This document shows, piece after piece, positions 5,409-56,625 of a stretch of 64,000 bases of DNA. The first letter of the stretch is position 1, and each line of letters opens with the position of its first letter. A model generated the notes under the pieces. The model did not search any database, was not told the DNA's origin, and saw nothing but the letters and a program-made list of their open reading frames with translations. The DNA comes from Woeseiaceae bacterium (lineage in GTDB: Bacteria; Pseudomonadota; Gammaproteobacteria; Steroidobacterales; Woeseiaceae), in assembly GCA_021773115.1 (NCBI GenBank), contig JAJFKS010000033.1, forward strand, positions 248,001 to 312,000, written 5' to 3'. The position numbers and the translations under genes were made by a program.

Positions 5409-5861
5409 TCAGCAGCTCCTCGGCGAAGATTGTTCAATCAATGGACACAGCAGCCCATCGAAAAGCTCGTTCGCTGGCATCGTCTGCCAGCTCTCCAAAA
5501 CCTGTTCAATCCGGCCTTCGATTGCCTGCAGCTGTGATACCTCTTCGCGGATAATGGCGCGCCGCTGCTCAACCAGATTACGCAATTGTTGACCCGGCAT
5601 TTCTCCCTGTTCAACGGTTTTGAGAATCTCTTTGATGTCGCCGATTCTTAGGCCCAGCGCTTGCGCTTGCCGAATGAACTCAATGCGCCGAAGGTCTTCC
5701 TTAGAAAACAGGCGATACCCGTTGTCAGGCTCGCGTTCGGGACTGAGCAGCCCAATGCGTGAATAGTATCGAACGGTGGCCGGTGTGACCCCCGCGCGCT
5801 TTGCGAGATCGGTGACGCGCAAGGCACCAAAAGCCCTCGCCGAAAAAAGTTGGGTGTGCAT
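5409..5861 (-). CDS. MerR-family transcriptional regulator (heavy-metal type)
   Basis: 150 aa; LRVTDLAKRAGVTPATVRYYSRIGLLSPEREPDNGYRLFSKEDLRRIEFIRQAQALG winged HTH; C-terminal LLCPLIEQSSPRSC. Confidence 0.9.
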   Translation of the reverse strand: MHTQLFSARAFGALRVTDLAKRAGVTPATVRYYSRIGLLSPEREPDNGYRLFSKEDLRRIEFIRQAQALGLRIGDIKEILKTVEQGEMPGQQLRNLVEQRRAIIREEVSQLQAIEGRIEQVLESWQTMPANELFDGLLCPLIEQSSPRSC

Positions 5862-13722: not shown

Positions 13723-13754
13723 ATGGTATATCCTGTATCCAGCACACAGGTCAA
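13723..13754 (-). promoter_or_regulatory. MerR-type promoter/operator upstream of nqrA
   Basis: TTGACC-TGTGTGCTGGATACAGGATA(20)-TACCAT; 20-bp spacer with ACCTG..CAGGA dyad. Confidence 0.65.
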
Positions 13755-19163: not shown

Positions 19164-19195
19164 AGTGTGCAACCTGTACCCTACTGCCATGTCAA
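19164..19195 (-). promoter_or_regulatory. MerR-type promoter/operator upstream of hflK
   Basis: TTGACA-TGGCAGTAGGGTACAGGTTG(20)-CACACT. Confidence 0.6.
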
Positions 19196-25760: not shown

Positions 25761-25792
25761 ATTTTGCGAGATGTACGTTACATACATGTCAA
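25761..25792 (-). promoter_or_regulatory. MerR-type promoter/operator upstream of glgP
   Basis: TTGACA-TGTATGTAACGTACATCTCG(20)-CAAAAT; dyad ATGTA-N7-TACAT. Confidence 0.5.
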
Positions 25793-26916: not shown

Positions 26917-28569
26917 CTATTGCGTACCAAGTCGCAGCGCGTCGTCGACGATGTCCTGCGCCTCGGAAAGCAGACCGTGCAGATGCTCCTTGCCACTAAA
27001 ACTCTCGGCGTAAATCTTGTAGATGTCCTCAGTGCCGGACGGCCGCGCGGCGAACCAGCCGCTAGCGGTGACAACCTTGATGCCGCCGATTGGCGCATCG
27101 TTGCCCGGTGCGCGATCGAGCACCTGCTCGATTTTCTCGCCGCCGAGTTGTGTGATCCGCACCTGTTGCGGTGAGAGTTTCGACAGCGCCTTTTTCTGTG
27201 CCGGTGTCGCGGGCGCTTCCACCCGATCGTAAACAGGCTCGCCGAACTCACGCGTTAAATCGCAATACAGCTCGCCCGGATCGCGGCCTTCACGCGCAGT
27301 GATTTCTGCGGCTAGCAAGGCCGGAACGATACCGTCTTTGTCGGTCGTCCAGACACTGCTGTCACGCCGCAGAAACGTCGCGCCCGCGCTCTCTTCACCG
27401 CCGAATCCGAGCGACCCGTCAAGCAAACCATCGGCGAACCACTTGAAGCCGACCGGCACCTCATGGAGCTTGCGTCCGAGCTTCGCCGCGACACGATCGA
27501 TCATCTGGCTGCTCACGACGGTTTTTCCGACGGCCACTTGCGCGTGCCATTCCGATCGATGCTGAAACAGGTAGTAAATTGCGACGGCGAGATAATGATT
27601 CGGCGGCAGCAGACCCGAACCCCGCGTAACGATACCGTGTCGATCGTGATCGGTATCGCAGGCGAAGGCGATGTCGAATTGATTTTTCAGGCCGATCAAA
27701 CCCTGCATCGCATAGGACGATGACGGGTCCATGCGAATCCGACCGTCCCAGTCGACGGTCATGAACCGAAAAGTGGGATCGACATCCTTATTCACCACCG
27801 TGAGCTTCAAATCATAGCGCTCCGCAATCGCCGCCCAATAGTGAACGCCGGCACCACCTAGCGGATCCACGCCCATGCTGATATTCGCACCACCAATCGC
27901 GTCAAGGTCAAGCACGCTATCGAGATCGTTAACGTAGGCGCTCAGGTAATCGTGCCGGTGCGTCGTGGCCGCACGCAAGGCCTGTTTGAACGGCATTCTC
28001 TTCACGCCCTGCAGGGCGTCTTTCAATAAAGTGTTCGCCCTTTTCTCGATCCAGCCAGTAATGCCGGTATCGGCCGGCCCGCCAGTGGGAGGATTGTATT
28101 TATAGCCGCCGCTGTCGGGCGGATTGTGTGACGGCGTGATCACGATGCCGTCGGCCAGTCCGCTGTCGCGGCCCCGATTGTGAACAAGAATGGCGTGCGA
28201 AACAGCGGGGGTGGGCGTGTATTCATCGTGCTCAGCCAGCATGACGTCCACGCCGTTGGCCGCAAACACTTCGAGCGCACTGGCAAAAGCAGGCTCGGAC
28301 AGCGCGTGCGTGTCAATGCCGAGAAACAGCGGGCCATCAATACCGGCTTGCTTGCGGTACTGACAAATCGCCTGGCTGATCGCAAGCACATGCGCTTCGT
28401 TAAAGCTGTTGTCGAGTGCGGATCCGCGATGTCCCGACGTACCGAACGCGACGCGTTGTGTAGGCTCCGCAAAGTCAGGCACGCCAGTGTAATAGGCCGT
28501 CATCAATCTTGGGATGTTAACCAGCATCTCCGGTGGTGCAGGCTTGCCGGCAAGCGGGTTTGGTTCCAT
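26917..28569 (-). CDS. pgm: Phosphoglucomutase (alpha-D-glucose phosphate-specific)
   Basis: 550 aa; [47 protein letters not shown]; start overlaps stop of the ATPase gene. Confidence 0.95.
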
Positions 28570-30938
28570 TACGATGTCGCCGAAACGGCGGCGGGCTGGG
28601 GTTGCGGGGCGTTGATGCCGTCAAGACGGGTGCGCTTAAGCAGCAAGGCATTAACCGCCACCAGCGCCGAACTGCCCGACATGGCGAGAGCGGCCACCTC
28701 GGGACTCACGACCAGTGGATAGAAAATCCCCGCCGCCACTGGAAAAGCAATGACGTTATACGCGACGGCCCAGAACAGATTTTGGTGCATCTTGCGCAAG
28801 GTTGCGCGTGACAGCTCAATCGCGCCGAGCACGTCATAGGGATCGCTTTTCATCAGCACCACGTCGGCGCTGTCCATGGCGACGTCGGTGCCGGCACCTA
28901 TGGCAAAACCTACATCCGCCTGCGTCAGGGCCGGGGCGTCGTTGACGCCGTCGCCGACCATCCCGACCTTCTTGCCCTGGGACTGAAGCTCCTTGATCTT
29001 GTCGGCTTTTTGACCGGGCAGCACATCGGCAATTACCGTCTGGATGCCAAGCTCTTTGGCAATCCTCTCAGCGGTAGCCTGGTTGTCGCCGGTGAGCATG
29101 GCGACCTCCACACCCCGCTCGCGCATCTTTTTCACCATCGCCGCCGCCGTCGGTCGTGGTGCATCGGCGATGGAAATCAGTCCCACCAGTTTGCCGCCTT
29201 GAGCAACGTGGACGACCGTTTGTCCACTACCCTGAAGCCGGGCCGCCTCTTCGGCGAGTCCCGCCATGTCGACACGCTCCTCGTCCATCAAGCGGCGGTT
29301 TCCCAGCAGCACGGTCTGGCCCGCCACCTCGGCACGTGCGCCTTTGCCTTCGATGTTCAGAAATTCAGTCAGCGGTGCGGTAGCAAGCCCAGTCGCGCGA
29401 CGCAAAATCGCTTGTGCGAGAGGGTGATCGGAGCCTTGCTCCACCGTGGCCGCCAGACTCAGCACCGCATTCTGGTCGCCCTCGGCTGCGGCCACCTCCA
29501 CCACCTGGGGTTCGCCCATGGTCAGCGTACCGGTCTTGTCACAGACAACAATGTCGAGCCGGGTGGCCTCCTCAAGCGCCGAGGCATTCTTGAACAATAT
29601 TCCGTTCCTGGCGCCGAGACCAGTGCCCACCATCACGGCCATCGGTGTTGCGAGCCCGAGTGCGTCCGGACAAGCGATGACGAACACGGTAATCGTGAGC
29701 GTCACGGCGAACAGCAGACTGGCATTTAGCGCCCAGTACCAAACCCCGAATGTCAGCAGGCCGATGACGATGGCAATGACGACCAGCCACTGTGACGCTT
29801 TGTCGGCCAGCAGTTGCGCCGGCGCTTTGGAATTCTGCGCCTCCTGCACCAATTTAACGATCTGCGCCAGCGCGGTATCGGCGCCGACCTTGGTCGCACG
29901 GTATTTGAAGCTGCCGCTCTTGTTGATTGTGGCGCCGATCACTGTGTCGCCGGGCTTTTTGGCCACCGGCATGGATTCGCCGGTGAGCATCGATTCGTCC
30001 ACCTGCGACTCGCCGTCGAGGACCTCGCCGTCCACCGGAACCTTGTTACCCGGACGGATCACGACGATGTCATCCTTGATCACCTCAGCCGTCGGGATCT
30101 CCAATTCCTGACCGTCACGTATCACGGTGGCCTTCGGCGGTGCGAGATCCATCAGCGAACGAATAGCGTCGGACGCTCCTGCGCGGGCGCGCATCTCCAA
30201 CCAGTGCCCGAGTAGAATGAACACCAGCAGTACGGCCACCGCCGCGAAGAACTGTACGCCGTCGAAAAAGAACGTCGCACCGAGACTGAACAGATAGCCC
30301 GTGCCCACCGACAGCACCACCAGCACCGCCATATTGAGAACGCCATTGCGGAGCGCCCGCCACGCGGCAACGAAAAACGGCCAGCTGGGCCAGATGACGG
30401 CAACACTGGCCAACAGAAACAGCCACAGATTGAGCTTCAGGCCGAACGGCGGCGCCGGCGGTGTGAAAATCTCACCCATCGGCGAGTAAATGAAGATCGG
30501 CACAGTGAACAACAGGCAAATCCAGAAGCGCTTGCGCATATCGCGCACCATGGCCTGCATATCCATACTGCCGCCATGGCCCATCTCGTGCGCCATGGCC
30601 GTCGCATCGTCACCGCCAGCGTCGGTCCCGGTGTGCGCGGCATGGTGGTGATGTTCGTCGACGCCCGGGCCCGCCGTCCGTGTTCCATCGGGGGAATCGC
30701 CGGGTGTGCAAACATGTTTCGGCGTCAGTTCACCGCGGCAGTGAAAACCGCATTCGTGTATTTTTGCCTGGATCGCTTTGAGATCGGTGACATTGTCGTC
30801 GTAGCTGACGGTCGCGCTGCCGGCGACATAGTTAACGTCGGCTTTGTGCACGCCGGGTAGACGCATCAGTTGCTTTTCGACACCCGCCGCGCTCAGAGCG
30901 GAAATCAGTCCCGCGACTTCTACTATCGATTTAGTCAT
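28569..30938 (-). CDS. Heavy-metal translocating P1B-type ATPase with CPD transmembrane motif and Cys-less N-terminal HMA-like domain
   Basis: 789 aa; DKTGT phosphorylation site, [29 protein letters not shown] loop; TM motif [13 protein letters not shown]-terminus [25 protein letters not shown] lacks CxxC; His-rich linker. Confidence 0.93.
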
Positions 30939-30956: not shown

Positions 30957-31142
30957 TCAATGCCGGTGTTTTTGCTGTTGGTCGTTACGCTCCGCAGCTT
31001 CGGAATCATGCTGCGACTCGCTATCGTTGCTGTGACCGCCATGGCTGCCGTGACCGCCGTGACCGCCGTGACCGAATAAATGCATCGCGACAAATGCGAT
31101 GCCGACCACGACCCAAAACCCGTTTTCTATCAGCCAATCCAT
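30957..31142 (-). CDS. Small DUF2933-like membrane protein with His/Gly-rich tail
   Basis: 61 aa; MDWLIENGFWVVVGIAFVAMHLFGHGGHGGHGSHGGH; ATPase-operon context. Confidence 0.65.
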   Translation of the reverse strand: MDWLIENGFWVVVGIAFVAMHLFGHGGHGGHGSHGGHSNDSESQHDSEAAERNDQQQKHRH

Positions 31143-31305: not shown

Positions 31306-31337
31306 AGGCTACAACCTGCACCCAACTGTCAGGTCAA
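31306..31337 (-). promoter_or_regulatory. MerR-type promoter/operator for the DUF2933-ATPase-pgm operon
   Basis: TTGACC-TGACAGTTGGGTGCAGGTTG(20)-TAGCCT; inverted copy of 31454..31485. Confidence 0.75.
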
Positions 31338-31453
31338 GGAAGAACGATTGCCTGATGCTCCCGGTCTCACCTGTAAACCGAAACGACAGATGCCGCACCG
31401 CGATTGGATGACGGCCCGAGTGCACTCGTGTCTCCCGACCTGCGCGCGAGCCG

Positions 31454-31485
31454 TTGACCTGACAGTTGGGTACAGGTTGTATGCT
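31454..31485 (+). promoter_or_regulatory. MerR-type promoter/operator for the plus-strand esterase gene
   Basis: TTGACC-TGACAGTTGGGTACAGGTTG(20)-TATGCT. Confidence 0.75.
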
Positions 31486-31629
31486 ATGCCTCAACAACGG
31501 GATATGACGCTGGTGGGTGTGGCTGATGCTGCCTGGCTTGGCCCCGCTCGACGCTCCGCGCGCGGCATCGGATGCCGCGCAAGAGCAAACAAAAGGCAAC
31601 ACTGACATGCAAACCGACCGGCGACAGCG

Positions 31630-32652
31630 ATGACACCGACCACACCGGTACAGCACTCGGAGATCGAGCTACAGGTTTACTATCCAGTGAGCGACGGCCG
31701 TATCGTGTTGCATTGCGATTCGGATTGGGACGCTGATATCGAAGCCGACGAAATCCGCGACCAAGGTCAATGCTCGACGTTCAGACTGCGGTTCGACACG
31801 CCGTTTCGCTACTTGAAGCCCGTATGGGTGCGTGATAATTCGCGACATTGGGCGCGGGGCGAAAATTATCTGGTTCTGGCGCATGGCGAGCGCACGCGCC
31901 GCATTTATCCCTACTTTCTCAGGGACGACGGCTGCACCGTCTGCGACATCGAGCGAATGACATCAGCCGAGTCCTCCGCCCACTATGCTTTTCGGGTGTT
32001 TACGCCGCCGGGCTACCATGAGAACACCCTGAAGCGTTATCCCGTCCTGTATTTGCAGGATGGTCAAAACGTCTTCTTTCCCAGCGAGTCCTTTAGTGGT
32101 GCGGACTGGCGAATCCCGGAAACGCTGTCTTTGCTGAACGACATCAATTTGATCGATAAAGTCATTGCGGTCGGCATCTACCCGAATGACAGGGAACAAG
32201 ATTACACGCAGCCCGGCTATGAGGCCTACGGACGCTTCCTGGCCGGCCAACTAAAGCCGCGGATAGACAGCGTCTTTCGCACATTGTCCGACGCTCGCAA
32301 CACCGCGATCATGGGTTCATCGCTCGGCGGCGTCGCGTCGCTTTTTGTGGCGTGGCAGTGGCCGAAACTGTTTGGCAAGGTGGCCTGCCTGTCGAGCACC
32401 TTCGGCTGGCGAGATGACTTGCACACCCGCATCGCCGCCGACCAGCCGCGAGACATTCGCATATACCTCGACAGCGGCTGGCCGCAGGATAACTACGAGG
32501 TCACTCGTGACATGCAGGCGTTGCTCTTGAGCCGTGGCTATTCGTTTGGCCAGGATCTGCAGTACTTTGTGTTTCCTGGCTCCGCACACAACGAAAAAGC
32601 CTGGGCGCTGCGCAGCCATATTCCCTGCCAGTTCCTGTTCGCTGATCGGTGA
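31630..32652 (+). CDS. Putative esterase (esterase D/enterochelin esterase-like)
   Basis: 340 aa; RYPVLYLQDGQNVFF, NTAIMGSSLGGVASLFVAWQWP (GSSLGG nucleophile elbow), PGSAHNEKAWALR. Confidence 0.85.
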   Translation: MTPTTPVQHSEIELQVYYPVSDGRIVLHCDSDWDADIEADEIRDQGQCSTFRLRFDTPFRYLKPVWVRDNSRHWARGENYLVLAHGERTRRIYPYFLRDDGCTVCDIERMTSAESSAHYAFRVFTPPGYHENTLKRYPVLYLQDGQNVFFPSESFSGADWRIPETLSLLNDINLIDKVIAVGIYPNDREQDYTQPGYEAYGRFLAGQLKPRIDSVFRTLSDARNTAIMGSSLGGVASLFVAWQWPKLFGKVACLSSTFGWRDDLHTRIAADQPRDIRIYLDSGWPQDNYEVTRDMQALLLSRGYSFGQDLQYFVFPGSAHNEKAWALRSHIPCQFLFADR

Positions 32653-34952: not shown

Positions 34953-34984
34953 AGTGTAGGGGGTGTATCCTGCACACAAGTCAA
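34953..34984 (-). promoter_or_regulatory. MerR-type promoter/operator upstream of glgC
   Basis: TTGACT-TGTGTGCAGGATACACCCCC(20)-TACACT. Confidence 0.55.
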
Positions 34985-46490: not shown

Positions 46491-47124
46491 GATCGACTCC
46501 AATTTCAAGAATGCTGTCATCAATGAATCGATAAGGCGGCACGACGAGGTTGGTTGGTGCAGGCACATTCTTGGTCACACGCCCGGCTAAATCGAACTTG
46601 GAGCCGTGGCACGGACAAAAATAGCCACCCATCCAATCCTCCCCGAGCCCTTCTCCAGCCACGTCCGGGCGAAATAGCGGCACACAACCCAGGTGTGTGC
46701 ACAGAGCCACTGCCACAAAAATTTCAGGGCGTAGTGAACGCAGCGGATTTTGCGCGTACGGCGGCTGCTGCGTCTGCACAGCTGAGTCGGGATCACGCAG
46801 CTCGTTAATCCAGTGCCCGTGCGCCATGCGCTCAAGCATCGCCGGTGTGCGACGCAAGATCCAGATGGGCTTGCCGCGCCAGATAACCGTGATTTGTGCG
46901 CCCGGCTCGATTTGGCCAACGTTTACGGACACCGCACCGCCGACCGCCTGCGCTTTCGCGCTCGGTCTTAGCGATGCAATAAACGGCCATGCCGCCAGGC
47001 CCGCGCCGACCACCCCGGTGGTGGTGGCCGCGGCGACCAGAAAATGTCGGCGTTGCCGCTCGGGATCACTCACCAACTTACTGGTGGATCCCGTATCCGC
47101 AGCGGCGTCTGGTTTGGATTTCAT
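46477..47124 (-). CDS. Rieske 2Fe-2S protein (ubiquinol-cytochrome c reductase iron-sulfur subunit-like), no cytochrome b/c1 adjacent
   Basis: 215 aa; N-terminal [12 protein letters not shown]...[17 protein letters not shown]. Confidence 0.92.
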
Positions 47125-47555
47125 AGTTCGACCTTACCTATGTCGCCGCCCATTTCTGCCACGGCATCAATCAGGTGGCACAAACTTTCGTGGCTGGGTA
47201 GTTGATCCGGCATGGACTCCCACACGTCGACCGCAGACTCAATACGGCTTTGCAGTGCGTTGAGTTCCTGGAGTCGCTTCCGATTTTCGTTTGCGCGCCG
47301 CGTGATTATTTGACGAACCTCCCGGCACGGCGATTGACCCGCGTCCGCGTCGGCCAATATTCTTTGTATGTCGCTGAGCTTAAAACCCAGTAATTTTGCG
47401 CGCCGAATGAAGCGAACACGATAAATGTCCGTCGTCGAGAACTGACGATAACCGTTGTCGGAGTCACGCGATGGCGTAAGCAAACCAATCTGCGTGTAAT
47501 AGCGCACCACGTAGGACCGCACACCGGCTTTGTTGGCTAGTCCTTTTACGTGCAT
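47121..47555 (-). CDS. MerR-family transcriptional regulator (heavy-metal type)
   Basis: 144 aa; VRYYTQIGLLTPSRDSDNGYRQFSTTDIYRVRFIRRAKLLGFKLSDIQRIL; Cys at SPCREV and SLCHLI. Confidence 0.9.
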   Translation of the reverse strand: MHVKGLANKAGVRSYVVRYYTQIGLLTPSRDSDNGYRQFSTTDIYRVRFIRRAKLLGFKLSDIQRILADADAGQSPCREVRQIITRRANENRKRLQELNALQSRIESAVDVWESMPDQLPSHESLCHLIDAVAEMGGDIGKVEL

Positions 47556-49611: not shown

Positions 49612-49643
49612 ATGCTACGACCTATACGTTGCACACAGCTCAA
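49612..49643 (-). promoter_or_regulatory. MerR-type promoter/operator upstream of the porin-cytochrome-CopA array
   Basis: TTGAGC-TGTGTGCAACGTATAGGTCG(20)-TAGCAT. Confidence 0.6.
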
Positions 49644-56593: not shown

Positions 56594-56625
56594 ACCTTAC
56601 AAGGTTTATGCAACATACAGGTCAA
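56594..56625 (-). promoter_or_regulatory. MerR-type promoter/operator upstream of the RND efflux operon
   Basis: TTGACC-TGTATGTTGCATAAACCTTG(20)-TAAGGT. Confidence 0.6.

Follow-up and report, generated by a model that had tools for sequence, protein, structure and literature searches.

In the window, by which we mean the whole 64,000-nucleotide stretch of Woeseiaceae bacterium DNA analysed here, a near-perfect 28-bp inverted repeat can be read with good confidence as a pair of back-to-back, metal-responsive promoters of the MerR type, which would fire outward and form two members of a predicted island-wide regulon. The kind of promoter is already known, and it is the metabolic content of the regulon that is of interest. 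The original prediction recognized divergent MerR-type promoters at this place but missed the regulon to which they belong.

Anatomy of the divergent arms and their flanking genes

The repeat comprises two putative promoter/operator arms and the stretch between them:
31310..31337, minus strand: minus-facing MerR-type promoter/operator arm, with -35 TTGACC at 31337-31332, a 20-bp spacer and -10 TAGCCT at 31311-31306
31454..31481, plus strand: plus-facing MerR-type promoter/operator arm, with -35 TTGACC at 31454-31459, a 20-bp spacer and -10 TATGCT at 31480-31485
31338..31453, no strand: 116-bp stretch between the divergent promoters, without an assigned gene

As had been proposed, the arms form a 28-bp inverted repeat with one mismatch: they are complementary at 27 of 28 positions (96%), differ by a single A/G and are separated by 116 nt. 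The expectation that each arm possesses its own -35 and -10 is borne out as well, since both follow TTGACC-N20-TANNNT and point outward, the full spans being TTGACC-N20-TATGCT (31454-31485) for the plus arm and TTGACC-N20-TAGCCT (31337-31306) for the minus arm. Beyond the 28 bp the flanks are unrelated, again as foreseen, and agree only at the last two -10 bases (CT). Inside each spacer lies an outer dyad, ACCTG-N11-CAGGT, which is imperfect: the outer five base pairs pair and the inner ones do not. A standard sigma-70 scan (16–18 bp spacing) detected neither arm promoter because the spacer measures 20 bp, and a spacer of 19–20 bp is a hallmark of the MerR family (PMC3431237, PMC5045206).

At up to three mismatches, the 28-mer has no match in the 4.41-Mb genome besides the two arms, and the 21-bp core is found three times in the window (both arms and 19172-19192), compared with 0.00 expected in shuffled windows. 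No Rfam family reached its gathering score between 30900 and 31900, the exact 28-mer had no match in viral contigs, and comparison of the intergenic DNA with plasmids returned just 28–30 bp matches, which is the chance level.

The genes on either side are those originally named, DUF2933, ATPase and pgm on the minus strand and an esterase on the plus strand, and this context is correct by Pfam/NCBIfam and by a homologue in the genome G054:
30957..31142, minus strand: small DUF2933-like membrane protein, encoded by the gene that opens the minus operon (Pfam 20.1 bits vs a cut-off of 21; G054 homologue)
28569..30938, minus strand: HMA-type P-type ATPase, whose membrane motif reads CPD rather than CPC and whose HMA domain has no CxxC
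26917..28569, minus strand: pgm, phosphoglucomutase (TIGR01132 above cut-off), overlapping the end of the ATPase gene
31630..32652, plus strand: putative esterase (PF00756), served by the plus arm
31607..31633, plus strand: possible 8-aa leader ORF, MQTDRRQR, read from the sequence and with an inferred function; its stop overlaps the esterase start (ATGA)

The CPD motif and the CxxC-less HMA domain of the P-type ATPase are common to five orthologues on alpha-, beta- and gammaproteobacterial plasmids, and because these traits are kept there, the ATPase may be no ordinary copper exporter.

In MerR-family promoters generally, the metal-bound regulator untwists the over-long spacer and transcription starts (PMC3431237, PMC5045206). 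By this model, a MerR-family dimer would bind the dyad within each 20-bp spacer; once bound to metal, it would untwist the spacer and thereby let sigma-70 RNA polymerase use the otherwise misaligned -35 and -10 elements. One arm would then turn on DUF2933-ATPase-pgm and the other the esterase, and since both arms face outward, one signal would turn on both flanking units.

An island-wide set of sites

Judged by sequence, the arms belong to a regulon that spans the island and has at least eight sites. The sites were found by an arm-similarity scan of the window, followed by matrix scans that raised the total to eight, and the target genes take their names from Pfam/NCBIfam:
13727..13754, minus strand: same-type site before nqrA (similarity and matrix scan)
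19168..19195, minus strand: same-type site before two Band-7 (HflK/HflC-like) genes; of the other window sites the nearest to the arms, 24/28 vs the plus arm
25765..25792, minus strand: same-type site before glgP, alpha-glucan phosphorylase (similarity and matrix scan)
34957..34984, minus strand: same-type site before a glgC-like nucleotidyltransferase (matrix scan)
49616..49643, minus strand: same-type site before an operon of a porin, two cytochromes c and the regulator MerR_B
56598..56625, minus strand: same-type site before a cusCBA-like efflux operon

Each of the eight, both arms included, lies upstream of a gene on its coding strand. They score 30–38 bits in the final matrix scan, which the same sites helped to build, and the reversed window yielded none at or above 12 bits. 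Pattern searches served for whole genomes and matrix scanning for selected sequences; among 149 genomes, a relaxed consensus pattern gave six matches in the source genome, all in the window, seven in G054 and none in most others, while the reversed-pattern control gave none in the source genome or in G054. All 20 main-set sites, including the two arms, have a 20-bp spacer (19–20 bp in plasmid relatives) around a 21-bp dyad centred 7 bp from the -35. The sixth -10 base is T in 20 of the 20 main-set sites, and as it falls outside the 28-bp search window, its constancy offers strong independent support for real promoters. It is on the spacer, this fixed T, the sites in relatives and the merR genes behind sites that the promoter part of the original prediction stands. 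The same model would extend control to cusCBA, porin-cytochrome-merR, nqrA, the Band-7 genes, glgP and glgC.

The same site type recurs in same-genus genomes before the orthologous nqrA (G054, C72), porin (G066 and G054) and cusCBA (G054, G048 and G023). On plasmids, a matching site stands just upstream of the MerR_B homologue in Alteromonas macleodii, A. stellipolaris, Shewanella baltica and Acidovorax; in Variovorax RA8 the site is far from merR. A Methylophaga pinxianii plasmid (L118, positions 2926 and 5408) has sites in two settings, in front of glgP and at the end of merR with DUF2934/DUF2933 genes following, which independently connects this type of regulator with glycogen genes. The island itself (13700-57000) mixes genes for copper efflux, Na-NQR, Band-7 proteins, glycogen metabolism, phosphoketolase and acetate kinase, and a Methylophaga thalassica plasmid (L057) has many of them: hflKC, ATPase, pgm, glgP and xfp.

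Some observations weigh against the promoter reading. The arm dyad is imperfect, and its inner ACAG..GGGT differs from the regulon consensus TGTRTG...; of the other sites only 19168 has this variant. In the loci examined from five other plasmids with an ATPase orthologue, no site was found directly before the ATPase (none at all in loci L057-L060, and sites elsewhere in L061), and in G054 the DUF2933-ATPase pair directly follows a coding region read as glucose-6-phosphate dehydrogenase (G6PDH-like), with no site between. The G054 case indicates that the divergent layout has not been conserved as a unit, and it looks to have come about locally through island shuffling.

Near-identity of the two arms

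Since the arms are two of eight regulon sites, much of their resemblance is ordinary conservation of a shared motif. Both fit that motif, other site pairs reach 24–25 of 28, and a back-to-back pair in G054 (C153:1011-1038 and 1084-1111), flanked on one side by a multicopper-oxidase-like gene and on the other by an ORF that by eye looks like the end of a MerR protein, shows that divergent pairs arise. That pair is far less alike than the arms, though, and two sites drawn independently from the motif that the other 18 define would be expected to agree at about 18 of 28 positions rather than 27 (P ~2.4e-5 per pair, or ~0.005 when all 190 pairs are allowed for by simple multiplication). The arms agree even at weakly constrained positions. 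The per-pair probability makes shared regulation an incomplete explanation on its own, and it is unlikely that the arms are just two regulon sites, independently evolved or recruited and alike by chance. The comparison instead points to a mixed source of the near-identity, the shared motif accounting for some of it and recent common origin or homogenisation for the rest.

One route to such homogenisation is a template switch of the quasipalindrome kind, in which replication copied one arm of two similar divergent sites onto the other. Template switching that perfects imperfect inverted repeats has been documented in E. coli (PMC7202029). It would fit an identity that is confined to the promoter element and ends in unrelated flanks on both sides, as well as the strong hairpin into which a single strand across the arms is predicted to fold (minimum free energy -45.4 vs -25.5 kcal/mol in shuffles, z -6.3). 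Like known quasipalindrome hot spots, the arms form an imperfect inverted repeat that could be made more perfect; they differ in that the loop is 116 nt and the case is known from sequence alone. The size of the loop, and the lack of an ancestral state or an orthologous region displaying the change, leave this route possible but rather improbable. Simple inverted copying of one arm could produce the same outcome. Copying and template-switch homogenisation are inseparable here because the orthologous intergenic region, sought via esterase homologues and plasmid comparisons, was not found. As an anchor, the esterase is rare: homologues of 45–53% identity occur in two same-order genomes and in Acidobacteriota/Blastocatellia, the stretches examined there show no convincing site, and the plasmids hold no close relative. 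The original prediction had offered recent duplication or inversion, or else strong selection on the site. Agreement at 27 rather than about 18 of 28 positions favours recent copying or homogenisation over selection alone, but the event is neither dated nor polarised, and much of the likeness belongs to the shared motif.

Near-perfect 28-bp inverted repeats around a 116-bp stretch that lacks an assigned gene also recall the ends of a small mobile element (a MITE or IS remnant), a reading that we consider very improbable: the unit is single in the genome, no direct repeat or target duplication was seen by eye beside the arms, and the arms are themselves complete MerR promoters, a type found singly in front of other operons. 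Terminal repeats of such an element would be expected in multiple copies and with a target-site duplication. A segment flanked by inverted repeats could likewise act as a phase-variable switch through inversion of the 116 bp, which is less probable still, given that both promoters lie in the arms and face outward, so that inversion would leave the output unchanged, and that no recombinase appeared among the Pfam-assigned ORFs of the window (a subset of ORFs was scanned).

Candidate regulators, sensed metal and the reach of the regulon

Two MerR-family regulators are encoded in the window:
47121..47555, minus strand: MerR_B, the likeliest regulator (144 aa), with a Cys in an SPC motif and a C-terminal LCHLI, in the operon behind site 49616
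5409..5861, minus strand: MerR_A, another MerR regulator, with about 40% identity to MerR_B

MerR_B is the likeliest regulator of the arms, although the presence of two paralogues tells against a firm assignment. MerR_A may instead govern both arms and site 19168; the CAG..GGGT inner sequence common to these three may reflect either common ancestry or the preference of one regulator. Plasmid homologues of MerR_B are about 40% identical to it, and the regulators have the SPC-type and C-terminal Cys in common, MerR_A being the exception at the former. MerR_A has PGQQ where its G066 orthologue has PCQQ, and the lack of this Cys may alter its sensing. The G066 orthologue of MerR_B (L050, 5597-6011) spans two reading frames, which may reflect a frameshift or an error of assembly.

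Both proteins fall below the NCBIfam equivalog cut-off for CueR (147.4 bits; MerR_B 70.6, MerR_A 62.5). MerR_B also fails those for MerR (77.1 vs 150.85), ZntR (73 vs 167.95) and CadR-PbrR (58.7 vs 151.45), and MerR_A lies below the same three. The sites here share with the CueR promoters of copA and cueO an over-long spacer, copper-efflux targets and a 21-bp dyad centred 7 bp from the -35. The CueR half-site, however, is unlike the half-site here, and MerR_B has Cys, not Ser, at the equivalent of CueR position 77. Divalent-metal sensors have Cys at that position more typically than copper sensors do, which argues against copper sensing by MerR_B. The same dyad geometry applies to CueR and CadR/PbrR sites (PMC5045206). 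Promoters of MerR (Hg), ZntR and PbrR/CadR have the 19–20 bp spacer and activator-type anatomy found here, and that of ZntR is also 20 bp (PMC3431237), but the regulator here is below every equivalog cut-off.

The closest parallels are the merR-copA clusters of Alteromonas plasmids, whose MerR variants are assigned to cd04787 and which include the A. macleodii HOT1A3 MerR, the homologue matched here (PMC8478169). They resemble the present system in their MerR_B-homologous regulator (~40%) with the same Cys positions, in the motif TTGACCTG...CAGGTT just upstream of merR, which matches the sites here, in their DUF2933, cupredoxin and isoprenylcysteine methyltransferase neighbours, and in often lying on genomic islands. 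They differ in having a 19-bp spacer and one site before merR at the loci examined, whereas here the spacer is 20 bp and there are eight sites, two of them back to back, which reach glycogen, phosphoglucomutase and Na-NQR genes. Copper induction of merR-copA has been measured in Alteromonas strains CUKW and KCC02 (PMC8478169), and because of these copper-induced relatives, copper is our best guess for the sensed metal. The site anatomy, the regulon, the conservation at orthologous genes and the linkage of sites to merR are read from the DNA; regulator binding, the metal, activation and the origin of the arm identity are what we infer from them.

At least eight metal-switch sites distributed across a metal-and-carbohydrate island suggest that one metal-sensor type also controls sugar-storage genes there. 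A broader proposal, to which we give slightly less than even confidence, is that one MerR-family sensor type on mobile islands jointly controls cusCBA, the CPD-motif ATPase, pgm, glgP, glgC and nqrA, and that metal stress directly triggers glycogen turnover. The wiring of glgP, with a site before the gene, recurs on the Methylophaga plasmid, and a literature search on this gene combination found no paper. If this reading is right, the repeat would give access to a metal regulon undescribed in the literature searched, one in which genes for sugar storage and respiration are tied to copper-type efflux on islands common to Proteobacteria and whose sequence motif allows its targets to be predicted. 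The near-identical arms, if rightly read, would offer a natural test case for the copying or homogenisation of divergent operators.
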